DNA of 38,356 nt from a virus. How positions within the stretch are numbered: position 1 is the stretch's first letter; each line of letters opens with the position of its first letter. Below the pieces are notes generated by a model. The model was not told the DNA's origin. It saw only the letters and a program-made list of their open reading frames with translations, and did no database searches. The position numbers were made by a program, and so were the translations under genes. The stretch covers positions 1 to 38,356 of IMG/VR virus record IMGVR_UViG_3300019487_000952. One strand, given 5' to 3'. Of this stretch, positions 3,401-36,981 are shown piece by piece.

Positions 3401-3487
3401 CTGGTTGTGGCCGGTCAGGACCGGCGCTTCGCCGTGAAAGGCAATGATCGCGTGCTGATCGTCGAGGGCGAGCAACGGAGGTACTGA
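407..3487 (+). CDS. Large acidic Trp/Asp-rich protein with triplicated N-terminal domain
   Basis: GTG start at 407, 1026 residues. Residues about 3-145, 158-280 and 283-420 are three diverged copies of one beta-rich domain. Shared marks are SGLxFxPK, STSSRRAxG, NSDGxxxIVD in copies 1 and 3, and NTDGFRLNWIARG in copy 2. Residues about 421-1000 are low complexity and very acidic, with recurring DAWPWFEE, WDWT, DDWW and APVxADAAP blocks and repeated GYQQxDG. The last 30 residues form short repeats of the type RxxVxGxDR. A neighbouring fibre-adaptor-like gene follows with a TGATG junction. A virion surface or appendage role is inferred. The acidic part is unlike any fold I can name. Confidence 0.75.
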   Translation: MSLEFAHGAIQWLSADGVSTTYTISGLSFQPKAIRFYWVGLQSASDAASEAVDERRGVGFAVSTSSRRAIGTFSQDTASTSNCGAAARNDCCVCTTNGAGASDGRLDLNAINSDGFQMIVDEAAPANITVFWEAWGGSDISVAVIGDIDEPAATGNQDYTVTGFVAGATDQVVMFAGCQSTAALNTDAATDSGLCVGFASSGSASDNVVIAGNSDDASAAMDTDLYGLSGECLAQIVVAGGNPNARAQLTQFNTDGFRLNWIARGLTNRRSVFLAIKGGQWRAGEFTINLGTVGNTATVSGLPFAPKGVSIISAGVAESTAGTSSTNDRMLFGSGSSTSSRRAMGILDENATASSACEIDTCIEYDAVMASPSTAGALLAAVDIDAVNSDGMRFIVDVAVTGTPWVGYLMFGDAPLEFGIGDPWDWGADDDLGPGSPYPSGYQQADGAPNTHQLDWRWDDDASDDQFLIEATAQSQPVEDFVRSSEVELLFDQAELYDDPVIDLAEAMSPVQAQAPPAEDQPEFTWPSWDEADDDTHEIAVSSDPRGDAPAPDTGTFEDAWPWDENAAEDESPSTELAQDDEAAALERDAAWPEEALDELWAEESAPVVADASAPEQQAIADGWDWPNEDTSLEGPFPGGYQQSDGEQVRIEDTLLDDELADDWWTEQPVADGAAPAEAQPPDDAWDWTGQALEAELALEHSPVGADAAPEPPSQPFDDFALFDVEFAPVAVFEVYQQADADPQAADTAWDWDTLAVDDWWAEQAAVLAADGEPVRRDEPWDWTEIAADELADDSAPVRADAAPADGLPPSDGWDWTDSALEAEAAEEHAPVVADASPQPLPAFESIDELAEDDWSGESVPVGADAAPEAGQPSADAWPWFEESVDDRVDSDEVVAVAEAPAQPLEPEFAQEWLEDEPVLESAPVAESAAAPDDVWPWFDDLAVDDPAQDAGTGENFPDPLLNVEDAWPWFEEIGLDEWQHEHRLPEFEIRESAATRRLVVAGQDRRFAVKGNDRVLIVEGEQRRY

Positions 3488-3834
3488 TGGCGGTGAAGAG
3501 CGCTTTTTTCTATGACGCCGCCGGCGCGTACTGCTTCCAGGACCCGGACGACGATCTGGACTATACCTTCGACTTCCGCGACGAGAAGGAGCCGGCGCTG
3601 CTTCCCGCCGAGAACATCGCCTCCGTGCTGGAGATGGTGCTGTCCAGGATCGACTCGGACGCGATAACCACAGAAGAGCTGCACGACCAGAGTAGCGACT
3701 CGGACGAGGTCGTCGTGTGGGTGCGCAAGCTGAAGAAGGGCGTGACCTACAACCTGGAATGCACGGTGCGCACCAGCGCTGCCATCCCGCGCGATTACTC
3801 GAGGAGCTTCAGGATTCTGTGCAAGGAGCGATGA
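3487..3834 (+). CDS. Phage fibre-tail adaptor-like protein (gp77-like)
   Basis: Protein of 115 residues with an ATG start that shares one base with the preceding stop (TGATG). The order QDPDDDLDYTFDF near residue 17, a central acidic segment, then KKGVTYNLECTVRTS and a terminal RSFRILCKER follows the small phage proteins usually annotated as fibre-tail adaptor or gp77-like. In those, a DPDAxLDY start is followed by a sandwich ending in TSxGRxxxRSFxI. In that family the protein sits next to tail fibre genes, which fits the large protein upstream. The next gene starts in an ATGA overlap at 3831. The family call is by pattern memory, so moderately sure. Confidence 0.6.
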   Translation: MAVKSAFFYDAAGAYCFQDPDDDLDYTFDFRDEKEPALLPAENIASVLEMVLSRIDSDAITTEELHDQSSDSDEVVVWVRKLKKGVTYNLECTVRTSAAIPRDYSRSFRILCKER

Positions 3835-4502
3835 CAGTGGCCGAGAAACAGACTCCTGTTAAGGTCGGCAAAATCTCGATACGTGATCGGGTGATTGATT
3901 TTCGTCGGGTCAAGGCGAGCGACCTGCGCAAGCACCCGCAGAACTGGCGCCTGCATCCTGAGTCGCAACGCAGCGCGCTCATGGCAATGTTCGACGAGGT
4001 CGGGTTCGTAGGCGCTGTCCTGACCAGGCAGGAAAGCGATGGGACTCTACAGATCCTGGATGGCCATCTTCGGGTTGATCTTCTTCCAGAAGAGGAAGTC
4101 CCCGTAATCGTCACTGACCTTTCAGAAGACGAGGGCAAGAAGATCCTCGCGACGTATGACCCGCTGTCGCAGATGACCATGACCGACGACAAGGCGCTGG
4201 CAGGCATCCTCGCAGAGGTTGGTCTCGACGATCATGCTGAGCTGCGCAAGATGTTTGCCGACGTCCAGTCGGCGATGCACCAGGAGGAGCAGACCGACTC
4301 AGACGCTCAGCGCGAAGTGCCAGGCATGGAGCTGCAGCCGCACGAGCACTACGACTATCTCGTGGTGCTGGCGACGACTTCGAACGAGTGGAATGTCCTT
4401 TGCGACAAGCTCGGGCTCAAGCCGGTGCGCACCCGCAAGGGTAAGGCAACCTGCAGGGCGCTCCGGGCCAAGGACTTACTGAGGCTCCTCCGTGGGGATT
4501 GA
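3831..4502 (+). CDS. ParB/Srx-like domain protein
   Basis: ATG at 3831 overlaps the previous stop (ATGA); 223 residues. The N-terminal half has the ParB/sulfiredoxin order: VKASDLRKHPQNWRLHPE (about 25-42), a helix, then ILDGHLRVDLL (about 78-88), which is the GxxR phosphate-binding box of ParB-like proteins, then EVPVIVTDLSEDEGKK. The C-terminal 70 residues (YDYLVVLATTSNEWNVLCDKLGL) look like a separate small domain. There is no ParA partner and no HTH domain like that of chromosomal ParB, so partitioning is unlikely. It overlaps the glycosyltransferase gene at 4492 by 11 bases, suggesting joint work on DNA bases or nucleotides. That role is inference. Confidence 0.75.
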   Translation: MTVAEKQTPVKVGKISIRDRVIDFRRVKASDLRKHPQNWRLHPESQRSALMAMFDEVGFVGAVLTRQESDGTLQILDGHLRVDLLPEEEVPVIVTDLSEDEGKKILATYDPLSQMTMTDDKALAGILAEVGLDDHAELRKMFADVQSAMHQEEQTDSDAQREVPGMELQPHEHYDYLVVLATTSNEWNVLCDKLGLKPVRTRKGKATCRALRAKDLLRLLRGD

Positions 4503-5274
4503 TAAGGCTGCGGATCTCGACTACACGTTGGTCGTGCCTTCGCGCCGGCGTGTCCACAACATGCCGGTCATCCGCGAGCTGCTCCCGACGGCGCTAGTCT
4601 GCGTCGACGAGCGAGAGGTCAAGGAGTACCTGACCGAGGTTCCGGAGGGCAAGCTGCTCGTGCATCCGCCGCTCGACGGGGTTGCGAGGGTGATGAACTG
4701 GATGCTGGATGCCGTCAAGACCCCGATTTTTATCGAGATCGACGACGACTTCGCCGGTGTTCGTGTGAATGTCGGCACCAGGCGCTTCATCACGGATCCG
4801 GTGGAGATTCTCAACATTATCGAGAACGCCTGCCGCGCCACCCAGGATCTCGGGCTGACGGCTTTCACCTTCGCGCACTCACAGCACACGGTCTTCAACC
4901 GCGCCGACATCTGGCCGGTCAGACCGGTACAGCAATGCGATAACTGCTTCGGGGTGATGGGGGCAGCGCGCTATCGGAAATACGACGAGGGCCTGCCTGG
5001 ACGGGCAGCTGTGGACTGGACGCTGCGCACGTTGCTAGAGGATCGGTGCCTATATGTGGACATGCGTTTCAGGTTCGACTGCGGCGAAATCTTCAGTGGC
5101 GCCGGCGGGAACGTGGGCTTGGTCACCACCGATCAATTCGTCGCCACGTCGCGCAAGCTACGCAAGCGGTGGGGCAAACACCTGAACACGGAGGCTCCAG
5201 GGAGCCAGAAGCGACCGCACGTGTCGCCACTGCGGCTACAGGTCTCTCGCTGGAACAACAAGGCGCAGCGCTAG
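4492..5274 (+). CDS. TET-associated-type glycosyltransferase (TAGT-like)
   Basis: GTG start at 4492 inside the ParB-like gene; 260 residues. The order LVVPSRRRVHNMP (about 12-24), CVDEREVKEYL, VMNWMLDAVKTPIFIEIDDDF (GT-A-type Asp triad near residues 83-85), then MRFRFDCGEIFSGAGGNVGLV (about 183-203) matches my recollection of the TET/JBP-associated glycosyltransferases described by Iyer and colleagues. Those are thought to add sugars to oxidised bases in phage DNA. No TET/JBP dioxygenase is visible here, so the acceptor is unknown. The stop TAG overlaps the opposing gene's stop in the palindrome CTAG at 5271-5274. A GT-A-like fold is likely; DNA as the acceptor is inferred. Confidence 0.72.
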   Translation: MGIDKAADLDYTLVVPSRRRVHNMPVIRELLPTALVCVDEREVKEYLTEVPEGKLLVHPPLDGVARVMNWMLDAVKTPIFIEIDDDFAGVRVNVGTRRFITDPVEILNIIENACRATQDLGLTAFTFAHSQHTVFNRADIWPVRPVQQCDNCFGVMGAARYRKYDEGLPGRAAVDWTLRTLLEDRCLYVDMRFRFDCGEIFSGAGGNVGLVTTDQFVATSRKLRKRWGKHLNTEAPGSQKRPHVSPLRLQVSRWNNKAQR

Positions 5275-5603
5275 AGAGAGCGCGATCCGGTTTTCTGCTT
5301 CGGCGTCCAGGAGACGGCGTGGCCGCGAACCCACTTCGTTTTCTCGTGCCACGTGCCGACTTCGGCTAGGTAGTCGTTCAACTTCTGGAGCGCCGTGTTG
5401 ACCTCGGCCACAGCGTCCGGATTTTTATGGTCACAGCACAGCGCCCAAGGCGGGATGATGATCTCCTTGGACTTGCTGCCATCGCTCCAATCGACCGAGC
5501 CGTAGAAGTGCCAGGACGCGACACCGTCTTCGGTGTCATGGGCGATGCTGGTCAGGGCCGTGATGCGGCCCCCGTGCTTGTGCATCAGAAAGGCGGGTTG
5601 CAT
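5271..5603 (-). CDS. Hypothetical phage protein
   Basis: Leftward gene of 110 residues, 12 bases after the stop of the gene at 5616-6221 and so in the same operon. The protein begins MQPAFLMHKHGGRITALTS, then SWHFYGSVDWSDGS and a Cys-Cys-His patch (ALCCDHKN), ending basic. It reads as a small soluble protein, and no family is recognised. Its stop overlaps the stop of the convergent glycosyltransferase gene, so the two transcripts collide here. No clear T-rich terminator is present, only a weak GCGCT/AGCGC hairpin at 5268-5283. Confidence 0.7.
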   Translation of the reverse strand: MQPAFLMHKHGGRITALTSIAHDTEDGVASWHFYGSVDWSDGSKSKEIIIPPWALCCDHKNPDAVAEVNTALQKLNDYLAEVGTWHEKTKWVRGHAVSWTPKQKTGSRSL

Positions 5604-5615
5604 AAAAGGAAGTCC

Positions 5616-6221
5616 TCAAGAATCCTGTTCCTCCAGGTCGAGCGTGGACTGCTTCGTCTTGGCCAGTTGATCCTTGAGAGCCCACAGCCGATACGCCTCG
5701 TCTTCGTAGGCGTCCTTCGTCGGCTGCGCCGGCACCAGCTGCGTGCCGATCTCGCGAAAGTGATCTAGGCCGCGGCCGAGGCGCTTGCCCTGCGCGGTGT
5801 GCTTGTCATACGCCCAATCCGGGATCTCTGGCACCTTGTTTTCGAGCAGGTTGGCCAAGCCAACCGCCGTGTGGAAGTGATCGCCCTCGCGGCTCTTCTG
5901 CGCGCGGCACATGAGACGGATCGCGTTACCGATCGCCATCCGGACTTTGCCGAGTTTCATCGGGTCGGAGTCGTGCCAATCCTTCGCCTGCTGGCAGACG
6001 ATGTAAACGAAAGGCACGATCTGAGGGTTCGCCTGGGTGTCGATGTCCTCATGCGAAATCACTTGCAGGCGCTTGCACACCATCGAGAGGAAGGCTTTGG
6101 AGCTGTGCATCAGCTCTACGGCACATTCCATCGCCTCGCGCTCTTGGCCGCGACGGATGTGTTTTTGCATAGCCGAGCAGAGTACAAGAGGTTGCTGGCC
6201 GTGTAGGGTCTTCGGCATCAT
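5616..6221 (-). CDS. MgsA/RarA C-terminal-like protein without the ATPase domain
   Basis: Protein of 201 residues. MQKHIRRGQEREAMECAVEL, then KRLQVISHEDID, then VRMAIGNAIRLMCRAQKSR and DKHTAQGKRLGRGLDHF follow the helical C-terminal (tetramerisation) part of MgsA/RarA-type AAA+ proteins. There the pattern is an IRRGDxxxAL start, a RLxxIASEDIG box and a HTxxGKxxGRG box. No Walker A or B motif exists, so it cannot be an active ATPase by itself. Stand-alone copies occur in phages and may act in replication or repair, or bind the host RarA; this is inference. AGGAG lies 5' of the ATG at 6221. The promoter/operator at 6255-6283 probably drives it. Confidence 0.65.
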   Translation of the reverse strand: MMPKTLHGQQPLVLCSAMQKHIRRGQEREAMECAVELMHSSKAFLSMVCKRLQVISHEDIDTQANPQIVPFVYIVCQQAKDWHDSDPMKLGKVRMAIGNAIRLMCRAQKSREGDHFHTAVGLANLLENKVPEIPDWAYDKHTAQGKRLGRGLDHFREIGTQLVPAQPTKDAYEDEAYRLWALKDQLAKTKQSTLDLEEQDS

Positions 6222-6369: not shown

Positions 6370-6903
6370 ATGGCAAGAAACAACGCTCACCAGCTCGTCA
6401 TTCTCAAGCGACGTGCCCAGGTAGCCGCCTTGCGGCTACGCGGCTTTTCGCAACGCGATATCTGTGTCGCCCTCGCCACCAGCGATTCGCCCAACGTCAA
6501 CCCCGAGGATGGCAAGCCCTGGTCACTCGGAACTATCAACCACGATCTGAAAGTGATCGAGGCCGAGTGGCGAGCAAGGCTCGAGGCCAAGATCGATGAA
6601 CACCGCGCGAAACAATTGGCGGAGATCGATGAAGTAGACCGGTCAGCGTGGCGGAACCAGAACTACGAAATCGTTCTCAAGTGTGCCCAGCAACGCCGAG
6701 ATTTGCTTGGATTGGACGCTCCGAGGACTGTGAAGACAGAGCTGACTGGAAAGGACGGAGGGCCAATCGAGACCACCCCTCCACCTGCGTCGCTCGATCT
6801 GTCCAGACTCAGCTATGACGAGCTCAAGTCCCTCGAAAGCATCCACCTCAAGCTCCGAGCTGCCGGGCCTTCAGGAGGTCCAGAAGGAGCTGGCAAGGCG
6901 TAG
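6370..6903 (+). CDS. terS: Terminase small subunit
   Basis: Protein of 177 residues. The N-terminal part (residues 6-60: RRAQVAALRLRGFSQRDICVAL, then a helix with GTINHDLKVIEAEWR) is a helix-turn-helix like those with which TerS binds the packaging site. The middle (residues 60-115) is a charged helix, as expected for ring oligomerisation, with LGLDAPRTVKTELTGKDG after it, a very common TerS motif. The tail is proline and glycine rich. The large subunit follows at once and overlaps it by 89 bases, so position and content agree. It would start DNA packaging together with TerL. Confidence 0.88.
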   Translation: MARNNAHQLVILKRRAQVAALRLRGFSQRDICVALATSDSPNVNPEDGKPWSLGTINHDLKVIEAEWRARLEAKIDEHRAKQLAEIDEVDRSAWRNQNYEIVLKCAQQRRDLLGLDAPRTVKTELTGKDGGPIETTPPPASLDLSRLSYDELKSLESIHLKLRAAGPSGGPEGAGKA

Positions 6904-8359
6904 CTTCTACGAGTACGTCAAGCAGGCTTGGCCGATCCTGGAACCCGGCAAGCAGTTCGACGAGAACTGGCATATCCAGGTCATCTGTGACCACCTTCAA
7001 GCCATCACCGAGGGTCGGATCACGCGCCTGATCATAAACGTTCCATTCCGGACGCTTAAGTCCACGCTGGTCTCGGTGCTCTGGCCCACCTGGGAATGGG
7101 GGCCTGCTGGGTTGCCGCACCTACGGTACATCACCGCGTCGCACCAGAAGGATCTGGCCACGCGTGACGCGGTGGCGTCGCGGCGCGTCCTGCAATCCCC
7201 CTGGTATCAGAACTGCTGGGGCGATAGGGTCCGCCTTACCAGCGACCAGAACGTCAAGACGCGCTACGAGAACTCGCGGCGCGGGTACAGGCTCATCACG
7301 TCGGTCGATTCGGGGGCGACTGGCGAGGGCGGCAATCGCCAGCTCATCGACGACCCGCACGACATGACCAAGATTTTCAGCGCGGCCGATCGAAAGGCGG
7401 CGCTGGATTGGTGGGACAACACGATGGTCTCGCGGCTGGATGACCAGCAGCGCGACGCGATCGTGCTGATCATGCAGCGCGGCCACACCGAGGACTTGAC
7501 CGCGCACTTTCTGGCGACGGGCGTCTACCAACACGTCTGCCTGCCGATGGAGTTCGACGGAGTTCGCCGCGCCACGGTGCTCGGCGAGTACGACAAGCGC
7601 ACACAGGTCGGCGAATTACTGTTCCCGCGGCGCTACCCGACGGAAGTCGTTGCCTCACTGAAGCGCACGCTTGGTAGCTACGGCACGGCAGCGCAGCTCC
7701 AGCAGAATCCTATCCCGCTGGGCGGCACGATCTTCAAGCGCGACCGCTGGCAGTTCTACAAGGCGCTTCCGGAGATCGAGGAGCTGATCCTCTCCGTGGA
7801 CTGCGCCTTCAAGGACTTCCAGACCAGCGACTACGTTGCCATCCAGGCTTGGGGGCGCAAAGGTCCGAATCGATACCTGGTAGATCGGATCAAGGACCAC
7901 TTGGGATTTGCTGGAACCGTCACAGCTGTGCGCGCGATTCTGGCCAATCACCCTACGATCAGCGCAGTGCTGATCGAGGACGCAGCCAACGGCCCAGCTG
8001 TCATCGAGACGCTGCGCACCGAGATCGCTGGTGTGTTGGCGGTCCCGCCACAGGGCGGCAAGATCGCGCGGGCCTATGCCGTGCAACCGCAACAGGAAGC
8101 CGGCAACGTATGGTTGCCAGACCCGTCGATCGCCCCATGGGTTCATGAGTATCTGATGGAGCTCTCGGCTTACCCGGGGGCGCCAAACGATGACGAAACG
8201 GATGCGACAACGCAGGCGCTGGTCTGGTTCGGCCTGCGTGGGGACGCGATGGGTCTATTCGCATTCTTCGGAGACGAAGCGCGGCGCATCGCGGAGGAGA
8301 TGAAGCAGGCGGAGGAGCAGGCGAGAATAGCTTCACCACCAACTACTTTCATGCACTGA
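6815..8359 (+). CDS. terL: Terminase large subunit
   Basis: Protein of 514 residues, the packaging ATPase and nuclease. The ATPase part has LIINVPFRTLKST (about residues 70-82), a Walker A variant in which the usual PPRxGKS is PFRTLKST, and RQLIDDPHD (about 173-181) as Walker B. The nuclease part has the RNase H-like acidic set: SVDCAFKDFQTSDY (about 327-340), VLIEDAANGPAVI (about 385-397) and NDDETDATTQAL (about 458-469). Length is normal. The ATG at 6815 overlaps the small subunit by 89 bases. An AGGAGG at 6872 suggests a later start is possible, but no later ATG precedes the conserved region. The portal gene follows after 4 bases. Confidence 0.93.
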   Translation: MTSSSPSKASTSSSELPGLQEVQKELARRSFYEYVKQAWPILEPGKQFDENWHIQVICDHLQAITEGRITRLIINVPFRTLKSTLVSVLWPTWEWGPAGLPHLRYITASHQKDLATRDAVASRRVLQSPWYQNCWGDRVRLTSDQNVKTRYENSRRGYRLITSVDSGATGEGGNRQLIDDPHDMTKIFSAADRKAALDWWDNTMVSRLDDQQRDAIVLIMQRGHTEDLTAHFLATGVYQHVCLPMEFDGVRRATVLGEYDKRTQVGELLFPRRYPTEVVASLKRTLGSYGTAAQLQQNPIPLGGTIFKRDRWQFYKALPEIEELILSVDCAFKDFQTSDYVAIQAWGRKGPNRYLVDRIKDHLGFAGTVTAVRAILANHPTISAVLIEDAANGPAVIETLRTEIAGVLAVPPQGGKIARAYAVQPQQEAGNVWLPDPSIAPWVHEYLMELSAYPGAPNDDETDATTQALVWFGLRGDAMGLFAFFGDEARRIAEEMKQAEEQARIASPPTTFMH

Positions 8360-26134: not shown

Positions 26135-27235
26135 GTGGAGTTCATTCAGCCGGACTACACGACCCAAAGCGGGACGGCCTACCCTCTCGCCATAGACGCG
26201 GCAGTTGCGGCGCTCAAGAACGCAACCATGTTCATGTCGTTGCGAAACAACATCGAGATGAGCAACCCGAAGAACTTCGCGCTCAACGCGATCATGGCGG
26301 TGCCGGCATTCGGGAACGCGCTTGTTGCGGTTGGCGCAGCCGACGGCACGGACGCCTATATCGTCACACTGACCGGGCCGTTCTACGAGACGGCAACCTG
26401 GACTGAGCGATCCAACCCCAAGAACTTCGCACTCAATGACGTGGCCTGGTCCGGGGATGCTGGATCCTTGATAGTGGCGGTTGGCGCAGCCGACGGCACG
26501 GATGCGTACATAGTCACGTCTCCGACTGGCACGAGCTGGACCGAGCGCTCCAATCCGAAGAACTTTGCGCTGAACGCCGTGCATGGCAGGGTCGGCACGG
26601 CGCTGGTAGTCGCCGTCGGCGCAGCCGACGGCACGGACGCATACATCATAACGTCGACAGACGCCGTCTCCTGGACGGAGAGATCCAATCCGAAGAACTT
26701 CGCGCTCAACGATATCGTCTGGTCGGAAGAACTGTCACTGTGGGTAGCCGTCGGCGCAGCGGACGGGACCGATGCCTACATCGTGACCTCGCCAAACGGC
26801 ACGACGTGGACTGAGAGGGCGAACCCGAAGAACGTGACGCTCAACGCGGTTGCGTGGTCGCCGGAGCTCGGGCTGCTCGTGGCTGTTGGACAGAACGATG
26901 GGACCGACGCCTATGTAATCACGTCGCCGGATGGCATCACCTGGACCGAGCGGGCATGTGGCAAGGCGTCAACCGCTTTGAACGACGTCATCTGGTGCGG
27001 TCAGAACGAACCCTATTCGCAGGGACGCAGTTATTTCCTCGCGGTGGGCGCAGCATCTGGTACAGCCGGGAGAGCTTCAGTATCATTCGACGGCCTTTCA
27101 TGGACCGACGTAGATATCACGATGGTGTTCGGGAAGGACGCGGTCTTGAACGGCGTACTGTTCGAGCAGCTGGTGATGTTGGTTGGGTCGTCGGATGGTG
27201 CCGACGCCTACATCGTTCGTACTTTGAGGAGCTGA
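26135..27235 (+). CDS. Seven-repeat beta-propeller-like protein, candidate receptor binder
   Basis: GTG at 26135 with ribosome site AAGGAG; 366 residues. After a 42-residue N-terminal segment come seven repeats of about 45 residues. The first five read (S/A)NPKNxxLN, then VAVGAADGTDAYI, then TSPxGTxWTER. The last two are more diverged (ACGKASTALNDVIW and FGKDAVLNGVLF). Seven such units with W and DG turns suggest a seven-bladed propeller like the BNR/Asp-box folds. It lies straight after the tip gene, the usual place for a receptor-binding protein or fibre, and the N-terminal 40 residues may anchor it. No sialidase active site is claimed. Confidence 0.75.
   Translation: MEFIQPDYTTQSGTAYPLAIDAAVAALKNATMFMSLRNNIEMSNPKNFALNAIMAVPAFGNALVAVGAADGTDAYIVTLTGPFYETATWTERSNPKNFALNDVAWSGDAGSLIVAVGAADGTDAYIVTSPTGTSWTERSNPKNFALNAVHGRVGTALVVAVGAADGTDAYIITSTDAVSWTERSNPKNFALNDIVWSEELSLWVAVGAADGTDAYIVTSPNGTTWTERANPKNVTLNAVAWSPELGLLVAVGQNDGTDAYVITSPDGITWTERACGKASTALNDVIWCGQNEPYSQGRSYFLAVGAASGTAGRASVSFDGLSWTDVDITMVFGKDAVLNGVLFEQLVMLVGSSDGADAYIVRTLRS
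26261..27232 (+). repeat. Seven tandem coding repeats of about 135-150 bases
   Basis: A near-identical core (GTTGGCGCAGCCGACGGCAC and variants) recurs at about 26330, 26480, 26615 and 26750, with a weaker match at 26885. Spacing is about 150, 135, 135 and 135 bases. The last two units are diverged at the DNA level. Conservation at the nucleotide level hints at recent duplication or gene conversion. Confidence 0.75.
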
Positions 27236-32650: not shown

Positions 32651-32676
32651 GTGGCCCCTAGCCGGGAGCCTGCGGT
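32651..32676 (-). repeat. Leader repeat, copy 1, with hairpin
   Basis: A 26-base direct repeat that, on the minus strand, precedes the ribosome site of the 32634 gene. In the leftward RNA it folds GGCUCC with GGGGCC around a 6-base loop, with one G-U pair. The plus-strand RNA would have a C-A mismatch, so the element is built for the leftward message. Confidence 0.65.
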
Positions 32677-32976: not shown

Positions 32977-33002
32977 GTGGCCCCTAGCCGGGAGCCTGCG
33001 GT
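32977..33002 (-). repeat. Leader repeat, copy 2, with hairpin
   Basis: Exact second copy of the 26-base leader at 32651-32676, 326 bases away, again just before the ribosome site of a leftward gene (32962). Confidence 0.65.
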
Positions 33003-34911: not shown

Positions 34912-35901
34912 TCACGCGGCCAGCTTCACGCATTCCGCGAACACGGCTTCCTTGGTCTGCGCACTCTTGCCGAACCAAGAAGAGTCGAGTCTGGTGTCGG
35001 CAGACCGCGACTTGCTGTGATGGTCGTAGAACTCGGTGACTGCGTTGACCAGGCCCCAGGCGGTGCCGCGTGCCGATTCCAGATCGGAACCGATCGCCTT
35101 GCCATGCCAAAGGTCGATCACCTTGCCGACGGTCTGCGACTTGTCGAGGAACTTCTCCGGTTCCATCGCGCGGTCATCGTCGGTCGCGGCGTAGACGCGT
35201 TGCAGAATCTGCGTGGCCTTCCGGTCGTCGAGCTTGATCTTCGCGATCAGCTTCGCGGACTCGATGAAGGCGCTCCACGTGTCGACCGTGATCCCGAGCT
35301 GGTCCTTGACTTTCTCCGGGTCGAAGGTGTCGAAGTGGCAGACCTTCACTTGCTGGCCGTCCTTCACGTTGGAGCCCAGCGCCAATGTGAGAGTGTTCAT
35401 GCAGACCACGCGGACGCTGGTGAAGCGAGCTGTCGTCGCCATCCGACCGTCGCACGCCGTCGCGAGCAACAGATAGCCCTGGACCTTGTCCTGGCTGGCG
35501 ATCTTGGCTTCCTTGCCGATCTCCGCGAGCGCCCAAATCTTCTGGCCACCGCGCAGGCTGCCGGCGGTGTGCATCGTGAATCCGGCGCCCTTGGTCAGGT
35601 CATTGAAGAAGCCGAGGATCGCCTCGGGCTGCACTTCCTTGTAGGAATCGGAGACCACGGAGAGCGCATCACCGGTGTCGCTGCGGTAGAGAACGTCACG
35701 ACCGATGCTGGCTTGGCGGAGACCTGTCTCTGCCTGATAGAGGACCGGCGTGCGGAGGATTGACCAATCGAGACCCGCGGCCTTGCGCCACTCCTCGATC
35801 GTGGCGTTGGGGTCGATCTGCTGCCCGAGTTCGTGCCACGGTGTTTTCCCGACGTACGCCATGTTCGCCTTGCCGTTGCTCATGTCGATTTCGTGTGCCA
35901 T
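34912..35901 (-). CDS. DUF932 phage/plasmid-like protein (TIGR03299 type)
   Basis: Protein of 329 residues. AYVGKTPWHELGQQIDPNAT (residues about 15-34), VLYRSDTGDALSVVSDSYKEV (70-90), then ACDGRMATTARFTSVRVVCMNTL (about 149-171) are hallmarks of the DUF932 family. Such proteins occur in early regions of phages and plasmids; their role is not settled. AGGAGTTACCAG precedes the ATG at 35901. A sigma-70-like promoter with an operator lies about 50 bases upstream, so this gene heads a leftward operon. The gene is complete. Confidence 0.87.
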   Translation of the reverse strand: MAHEIDMSNGKANMAYVGKTPWHELGQQIDPNATIEEWRKAAGLDWSILRTPVLYQAETGLRQASIGRDVLYRSDTGDALSVVSDSYKEVQPEAILGFFNDLTKGAGFTMHTAGSLRGGQKIWALAEIGKEAKIASQDKVQGYLLLATACDGRMATTARFTSVRVVCMNTLTLALGSNVKDGQQVKVCHFDTFDPEKVKDQLGITVDTWSAFIESAKLIAKIKLDDRKATQILQRVYAATDDDRAMEPEKFLDKSQTVGKVIDLWHGKAIGSDLESARGTAWGLVNAVTEFYDHHSKSRSADTRLDSSWFGKSAQTKEAVFAECVKLAA

Positions 35902-36047: not shown

Positions 36048-36911
36048 TTACTTCGGCTCCGGCAGGGCTCCTGGGTAATGCTTGGCGATAATCCGGTTCA
36101 TCTGGTCGACCAGGTCCGGACGCTTGAAGGTGACGTGCCCGGCGCCGTTCTTGTATTGCTTGATCCGCACGTACTCGTTCTCCACGTCAGGGTCGGTCGT
36201 GTTCGCGAACATGTGCAACAGCTTGTAGGTTCCCTGCCGGTGATCCGGCTCGGCCTTGCCGTCGAGGACATGGAAGACGCGCATCAGATCGTCCAGCTCG
36301 TCGCAGTGGCGCATGTTGGGCCAGCCGAGTGATGTCCCTGGACCGGTCACGGCCGAGCGGATGTAGGTCAGGACAATCCGCTTGCCGAACTTCTGCGGCA
36401 GGTTTGTCTTGTAGTCCCAGGCCAGCCCCTTGAAGACGTTGATTACACCGCGCTCGAATATCTCGCCTCTGGAGTCGTGCAGCATCCGGAACGTGCCGCG
36501 GATGTTGTCGACCGTGAGCGGCGGCATATCCTTGCCTTCGATTTGCTTGTCCCACTGTTCGCGCGCCTTCGCGTCCATCAGGCTGCGCATCCCGGACTCG
36601 CCCATCAGATATTGCCAGCCGGCTCCGTCCACTTCCTTGCGCATGTGTTCGAGCACTTCGGCGCTGCGGTCCATGTAGGCGCCGTTGATCCGCTGTTCGA
36701 CGCTGCGCGAGTAGTGCGACGGTGACGTGCAGAACGTAGGGAACCCGACGTTCGCCCTCGCCGCGATCGCTGCGGTCTCGTTGATCATGTCGATGATCTG
36801 TGCCAGACGCTCCAACACGGCGTCGCGCTGATTCACCAGGTTCTCGATGCTGACGCTGGGCACGACCTGCGTGCCCGCGCTTTCGTCTTTCAGGATTTCG
36901 GGAGCGTTCAT
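36048..36911 (-). CDS. DUF4942-type protein
   Basis: Start at 36911 is chosen for the AAAGGAG site; a start at 36944 has none. The protein has 287 residues. A helical front (LVNQRDAVLERLAQIIDMI) precedes NIRGTFRMLHDSRGEIFERG (about 137-156), VFKGLAWDYKTNLPQKFGKR (about 160-179) and a closing GHVTFKRPDLVDQMNRIIA. These are the marks of the DUF4942 family as I remember it. Members occur in phages and mobile elements, at times beside DNA methylases. The function is not known. No promoter is visible directly upstream. Confidence 0.78.
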   Translation of the reverse strand: MNAPEILKDESAGTQVVPSVSIENLVNQRDAVLERLAQIIDMINETAAIAARANVGFPTFCTSPSHYSRSVEQRINGAYMDRSAEVLEHMRKEVDGAGWQYLMGESGMRSLMDAKAREQWDKQIEGKDMPPLTVDNIRGTFRMLHDSRGEIFERGVINVFKGLAWDYKTNLPQKFGKRIVLTYIRSAVTGPGTSLGWPNMRHCDELDDLMRVFHVLDGKAEPDHRQGTYKLLHMFANTTDPDVENEYVRIKQYKNGAGHVTFKRPDLVDQMNRIIAKHYPGALPEPK

Positions 36912-36981
36912 TGGGGCTGCTCCTTTCTCAAATCGTCCTTCCATACCGGTCGCTGCGCTGTTCTACGCGCTTGGGTGATGG

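Follow-up and report, generated by a model that had tools for sequence, protein, structure and literature searches.

A gene for a ParB-like protein and an overlapping gene for a predicted, divergent TET-associated-type glycosyltransferase (TAGT), which lie side by side in the viral contig analyzed here, represent a widespread conserved module and not a local oddity. The contig (38,356 bases in total; hereafter, the window) is possibly an incomplete genome, from which genes may be missing. An undescribed modification system, as proposed for this locus in the initial annotation, is the best reading of the pair; the TAGT-type glycosyltransferase, the non-partition character of the ParB-like protein, and the absence of TET and hydroxymethylase are supported as well. 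In the form that we consider fairly probable, the ParB-like protein would guide the glycosyltransferase, and the enzyme would modify phage DNA in which no hydroxymethyl base has been made beforehand.

The ParB-like ORF (positions 3831-4502, plus strand; ATG start, 223 amino acids, ParB/Srx-like NTPase-domain protein) is preceded by a purine-rich ribosome-binding site, AAGGAGCG. The glycosyltransferase ORF (positions 4492-5274, plus strand; 260 amino acids) starts with a GTG that falls within the last few codons of the ParB frame, and the overlap of the frames (positions 4492-4502, plus strand) is exactly 11 bases; thus, both ORFs and their overlap were found as annotated for positions 3831-5274. 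The upstream neighbor is a gene similar to that of the fibre-tail adaptor gp77 of a podophage (positions 3487-3834, plus strand; PF23148 over the cut-off). Downstream of the pair are a minus-strand gene (positions 5271-5603), a minus-strand gene for a RarA/MgsA C-terminal-like protein (positions 5616-6221; PF12002, E = 1.2e-3, below the cut-off; PHROG 33349/16866), the gene for the terminase large subunit (positions 6815-8359, plus strand; PHROG 38, E = 4.5e-83; PF17289 (Terminase_6C)), and the portal gene. The pair had been regarded as an island between fibre-type and packaging genes, and this holds with the qualification that two minus-strand genes intervene. The gene order was kept in 12 further loci with a glycosyltransferase at 40-54% identity and in 3 loci with a ParB-like protein at 50-53% identity; since the homologous loci keep both ORFs in the same order, both are real genes.

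RarA/MgsA C-terminal-like genes were also observed within a few genes of the pair in other loci (L088, L092, L093, L102, L002, and L003). Homologues occur near the glycosyltransferase in both window-type and Microbacterium phages (PHROG 16866, E = 3e-33 in phage Gina), and no match to an AAA+ motor domain was obtained with this protein. As for the remainder of the window, three observations were made. A DUF4942 protein (positions 36048-36944, minus strand), adjoined by a DUF932 protein (positions 34912-35901), aligns with PHROG 6263, "DNA methyltransferase", over the N-terminal half of that family and is without the methyltransferase part. Five 41-nt direct repeats with 135-150 nt spacing (positions 26248-26846) lie within an ORF (positions 26135-27235) that likely encodes a repeat-built tail protein. 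Two identical 26-nt copies of GTGGCCCCTAGCCGGGAGCCTGCGGT are located at positions 32651-32676 and 32977-33002, the second of which is at a GTG gene start.

The glycosyltransferase of the window matched PHROG 842 (E = 7e-11). With PF20691, the Pfam model for TAGT, it scored 21.1 bits, which is under the curated cut-off of 27.5, and the cut-off was passed by the homologues from PMBT4 (153 bits) and Javan291 (63 bits). The AlphaFold model (pLDDT 83, pTM 0.81) had the GT-A fold. Foldseek searches with the model retrieved WrtF, TarP, GalNAc-T2, and other GT-A enzymes from the PDB and phage TAGT models from BFVD (TM 0.68-0.78); a PDB sequence search with the glycosyltransferase profile gave chance matches only. 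The motif S-R-R-R (S17...R20; positions 4540-4551, plus strand) follows the first strand, with S17 and R20 kept in 144 of 145 homologues. The presumed metal-binding or catalytic motif D84-D85-D86 (DXD equivalent; positions 4741-4749, plus strand) has D84 and D85 in all 145, and G205-G206 (positions 5104-5109, plus strand) is likewise invariant (145/145). We regard it as almost certain that the protein is a GT-A enzyme, and, on the basis of PHROG 842, the sub-cut-off PF20691 score, and the predicted fold, it is classed as a divergent TAGT. The TAGT-like assignment in the initial annotation is thus supported, and the placement among GT-A enzymes on which it depends withstood the fold searches. 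Note that the glycosyltransferase frame is split by in-frame stops in two relatives (L064:170-928 and L072:5001-5759), possibly by stop-codon reassignment.

The ParB-like protein matched PHROG 498 and 620 (E = 4.5e-13 and 4e-10, respectively) and the profiles of Spo0J (E = 9e-15) and Noc, and more weakly those of free serine kinase and sulfiredoxin. With its AF2 model (pLDDT 82), Foldseek retrieved ParB/Noc NTPase domains. The ParB-like NTPase (ParB_N) domain covers about residues 17-130 (positions 3879-4220, plus strand), in which N38, G58, and G78-H79-x-R81 are conserved in the alignments, and the C-terminal tail covers residues 164-223 (positions 4320-4499, plus strand), a region of which the sequence tracks the glycosyltransferase (see below). 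W187 of the tail is W in 137 of the 145 paired ParB-like proteins. No HTH family was found in the window protein with Pfam, the best ParB/Noc profile matches stop by about residue 125, and a control ParB (L061:7592) does show HTH_ParB. In a search with positive controls, ParA-like AAA_31 (PF13614) was found neither in the window nor in 11 isolate records. A role as partition ParB was thus rejected, since the NTPase domain is present without an HTH match or ParA, in line with the earlier suggestion that this partner acts outside partition.

With the window glycosyltransferase as a lone query, no phage matches were obtained at E = 1e-3, and none in IMG/VR. A search at E ≤ 10 revealed the pairs of Microbacterium phages and Streptococcus phage Javan291, in which the genes again adjoin and overlap, with an identity of only 22-27% to those of the window. 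The sample of relatives consisted of 80 IMG/VR loci obtained with the Javan291 query, 12 loci nearer to the window protein, and one Bradyrhizobium genome. In subfamily A, 93 of 96 glycosyltransferase ORFs (counting only ORFs preceded by 150 nt or more) had a ParB ORF upstream on the same strand, usually overlapping; the overlap was also seen in most relatives and is commonly 4-17 bases. To counter the bias of a single query, a second subfamily (C) was sampled by searching 398 Pseudomonadota genomes with PHROG 842, and its best match (L105) likewise has an overlapping ParB. In this subfamily, ParB was upstream in 69 of the 77 related viral glycosyltransferase ORFs having upstream sequence. A third subfamily, with clear Pfam TAGTs, has the pair in Lactobacillus phages c5, PMBT4, and phi jlb1, in Nocardia phage NTR1, E. 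coli phage vB_EcoS-613R10, and Porphyromonas phage 005a, and in the archaeal virus HHTV-2 (Haloarcula). In total, the three TAGT subfamilies cover isolates of 7 host groups and about 170 metagenomic loci, and 110 pairs were left in subfamilies A and C when glycosyltransferases at least 90% identical were removed. No recognizable ParB was found beside the TAGT of the large phages phiAS5, pv27, and Kuja, nor of Vibrio phages 1.076 and 1.124. ParB matches from Stenotrophomonas/Xanthomonas were not considered further, as no glycosyltransferase adjoined them in the stretches inspected.

Joint action of the two proteins is highly likely. In contig L156, ParB, tail, and TAGT are fused as one ORF of 474 amino acids. 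The ParB NTPase domain is common to all pairs, and the C-terminal tail is of three types, one per TAGT subfamily. Profiles A, B, and C of the tails matched the ParBs of their own subfamily in 84/84, 6/6, and 61/61 cases, with zero cross-matches; as the profiles were built from the sequences recovered, the informative part is the lack of cross-matches. In subfamily A, the tail covaried with the glycosyltransferase (rho 0.87) more than the NTPase domain did (rho 0.46; partial correlations, 0.84 versus 0.18), and this covariation could come partly from adjacency, with both moving as one recombination unit; in subfamily C alone, the tail-glycosyltransferase correlation was absent (rho 0.06). A Javan291-like ParB domain was present in 548 of 50,697 phage records, and among these 548 relatives only Javan291 itself covered at least 80% of the query; thus, the tail accompanies the glycosyltransferase and not ParB domains generally. 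In one locus (L093:5023-5466), an HNH-like CxxC...DHIKP motif occupies the position of the ParB domain and runs directly into the glycosyltransferase-linked ParB tail; a normal glycosyltransferase lies downstream. No ParB N-domain was recognized in the other ORFs of L093, which leaves two readings of the HNH-tail ORF, a true exception or a copy that has been damaged. A functionally unlinked pair, that is, accessory genes sharing a gene slot, would be consistent with the often distant relationship among the ParB NTPase domains beside similar glycosyltransferases and with the other partners held by the same slot (DUF4417 and a P-loop ATPase, for example). However, the near-universal linkage in three subfamilies, the fusion, and the subfamily-specific tails argue against it, and we give it hardly any credence.

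As for enzymes that could prepare an acceptor, PF12851 (TET/JBP) matched neither the window nor any other ParB–TAGT record searched (control P12024L, E = 2.8e-29). No thymidylate-synthase-type hydroxymethylase (PF00303) was detected in 51 phage records including the window, and no TGT/DpdA (PF01702) in the window and the phage isolate records tested, both with positive controls. PF11440 (DNA alpha-glucosyltransferase) gave no match, a result of little weight because no positive control responded. The description of the pair as lacking a visible dioxygenase or hydroxymethylase is thus consistent with the PF12851 and PF00303 searches of the window. An acceptor-making gene could lie outside the window, which may be incomplete; the absences of TET/JBP and PF00303 also hold in complete isolate genomes. 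Since neither TET nor the thymidylate-synthase-type hydroxymethylase was found, the acceptor would be an unmodified base or a base modified by an enzyme that was not recognized.

These results set the pair apart from known systems in several respects. The T6-like TAGT adds a second glucose onto glucosylated hmC in DNA, its substrate being alpha-glucosyl-hmC and its partners a hydroxymethylase and an alpha-glycosyltransferase (PMC13216743, PMC13390438). The window protein resembles the T2/T6 TAGT (beta-glucosyl-HMC-alpha-glucosyltransferase) in the GT-A family by PHROG and fold, the intact Asp-Asp motif, and the phage origin, but it has a ParB partner, no thymidylate-synthase-type hydroxymethylase, and a sequence below the Pfam cut-off. 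In TET–TAGT cassettes, the partner gene also precedes the TAGT gene, although it is TET there and ParB here; TET/JBP was missing from all ParB–TAGT records searched, the window included. DpdB is a ParB-like ATPase serving dPreQ0 insertion into DNA (PMC12839542), and DpdB and DndB are comparable as ParB-superfamily proteins in a DNA modification system; however, no TGT/DpdA homologue was found in the window or the isolates tested, and a Dpd-like 7-deazaguanine system was rejected for lack of TGT.

The ParB-like protein itself may be the enzyme that makes the acceptor, for example by an NTP-dependent transfer of phosphoryl groups onto bases or nucleotides, and TAGT would then add the sugar to the product. 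In Nonlabens phage P12024L, TET is directly upstream of TAGT (gp26-gp27-gp28), and thus ParB here occupies the place of TET there; moreover, the weaker profile matches, free serine kinase and sulfiredoxin, are catalytic members of the fold. On the other hand, the conserved core (N38, GHxR) is a generic nucleotide site, the separate tail matched to the glycosyltransferase subtype suggests an adaptor, and this ParB domain also occurs joined to complete DNA methyltransferases, for which no acceptor has to be made beforehand. We consider this enzymatic role quite unlikely, and assign a little better than an even chance to the ParB-like protein being no catalyst but an adaptor that engages DNA and depends on NTP.

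The fusions to methyltransferases also bear on the target. In Wolbachia phage WO, a ParB domain of the same kind (49% identity) forms one protein with a DPPY-motif DNA methyltransferase, encoded just 5' of the terminase region, and a more distant ParB–methyltransferase fusion was found in Streptococcus phage Javan100. In these fusions (PHROG 498), the ParB domain, the genomic position, and the DNA-modifying nature of the partner are as in the pair, whereas the partner is a DPPY methyltransferase in cis in place of a glycosyltransferase in trans. In phages IPP66 and Javan377 (L129 and L126), a ParB domain of the same kind ahead of the terminase is fused to DUF4417 (PF14386), another exchangeable partner. 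From family and neighbors, phage DNA is the probable target of the ParB–TAGT pair.

A protein acceptor is the main alternative: the glycosyltransferase would decorate a virion or host protein, with the ParB-like protein as a scaffold or regulator. The pair is placed between tail-adaptor and packaging genes, the Foldseek neighbors include polypeptide GalNAc-transferases and GT2 enzymes of wall or LPS synthesis, and, for mycobacteriophages, capsid protein has been proposed as the substrate of phage-encoded glycosyltransferases. However, the constant neighbor is no particular virion protein and is a ParB domain elsewhere fused to DNA methyltransferases, the adjoining terminases belong to several families, and the closest characterized relatives (T6 TAGT) act on DNA; this alternative is thus rather unlikely. 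Alternatively, the pair may modify only a handful of sites close to where packaging begins and thereby control the terminase, not protecting the whole genome. ParB family relatives act from specific DNA sites, and many pairs are immediately 5' of terminase genes, a recurrent place directly before the small and large subunit genes. Nevertheless, the Microbacterium and HHTV-2 pairs have no annotated terminase directly after them, and a sugar from dedicated enzymes better fits bulk modification, so that a packaging or regulatory mark is very unlikely.

Genes for such enzymes were found beside some relatives of the pair. A gene for UDP-galactopyranose mutase is directly after the glycosyltransferase gene in L090 (6659-7768) and L096 (PF03275, E = 4e-62; PHROG 9677, listed as function unknown), which suggests galactofuranose as the donor there. 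Note that L088 and L101, L089 and L096, and L090 and L097 are same-contig pairs, and thus the mutase counts as two contigs, not four. In Microbacterium phages, the gene directly after that of the glycosyltransferase encodes a protein in which the central domain of UDP-glucose dehydrogenase was recognized. A sulfotransferase-like gene is directly 3' of it in three contigs (L101:2216-2842, L100:1644-2270, and L103:8768-9397), of which only L103 was above the Pfam cut-off for the carbohydrate-type sulfotransferase (PF03567), the genes of the other two being its homologues. Radical-SAM-like, FkbM-like, and other SAM-methyltransferase-like genes lie between ParB and TAGT in six loci (L154:1801-2733, L179:746-1450, L191, L210, L020, and L065). 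The sugar-nucleotide, sulfotransferase, and between-gene methyltransferase or radical-SAM-like neighbors are confined to some relatives, and none was found in the window. The donor of the glycosyltransferase is probably a UDP-sugar.

Taken together, the following mechanism is proposed for the ParB-guided modification of DNA. The ParB-like gene and the glycosyltransferase gene would form one functional unit, a ParB-linked TAGT, in which the ParB tail may dock the glycosyltransferase and the ParB domain may carry the enzyme to phage DNA, as suggested by the sister domains fused to DNA adenine methyltransferases before the terminase. NTP binding by ParB would perhaps be a switch. The enzyme would use a UDP-sugar, as the UDP-galactopyranose mutase, UDP-glucose-dehydrogenase-like, and sulfotransferase neighbors suggest, and bases of phage DNA would be glycosylated before packaging, most likely for escape from host nucleases; a counter-restriction role of the pair is putative. 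Both acceptor and donor are thus putative, the DNA acceptor being suggested by family and neighbors. A bolder form, which we consider possible but doubtful, is that a canonical base receives the sugar with no hydroxylation beforehand, that the ParB NTPase is a subunit which targets both glycosyltransferases and methyltransferases to DNA and can be exchanged between them, and that some phages use perhaps galactofuranose, glucuronate, or a sulfated sugar.

A solitary TAGT was reported in 288 of 753 phage genomes, as potentially novel transferases (NAR 2026, PMC13216743), and ParB is not mentioned in that paper. Those TAGT homologues, in phages without alpha- or beta-glucosyltransferase, probably overlap with our set. 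The paper on Microbacterium cluster EC lists glycosyltransferases and UDP-glucose dehydrogenase with no role assigned. In full-text literature searches, no paper joining ParB and TAGT was found; ParB as the partner, its fusion to TAGT, and the tails that differ by TAGT subtype are new as far as checked, and an earlier mention of ParB in the original TAGT paper (doi 10.1093/nar/gkt573) or in the paper on TET–TAGT biochemistry (doi 10.1073/pnas.2026742118) is possible.

Our data suggest that many "solitary" TAGTs are not solitary and that their partner is a ParB-like protein, and lead to the general idea that ParB domains are targeting subunits for DNA-modifying enzymes. The cultured phages bearing the pair (Microbacterium phage Quhwah, Lactobacillus phage c5, and Haloarcula virus HHTV-2) make this a bounded, testable system. 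If the acceptor is indeed an unmodified base, the modification would be a new DNA chemistry, with possible new enzymes and new targets of Type IV defence. Because the ParB–TAGT pair occurs in about a hundred unrelated phages without the enzymes presumed to be needed for preparing the acceptor, many viruses may glycosylate their DNA by an undescribed route.
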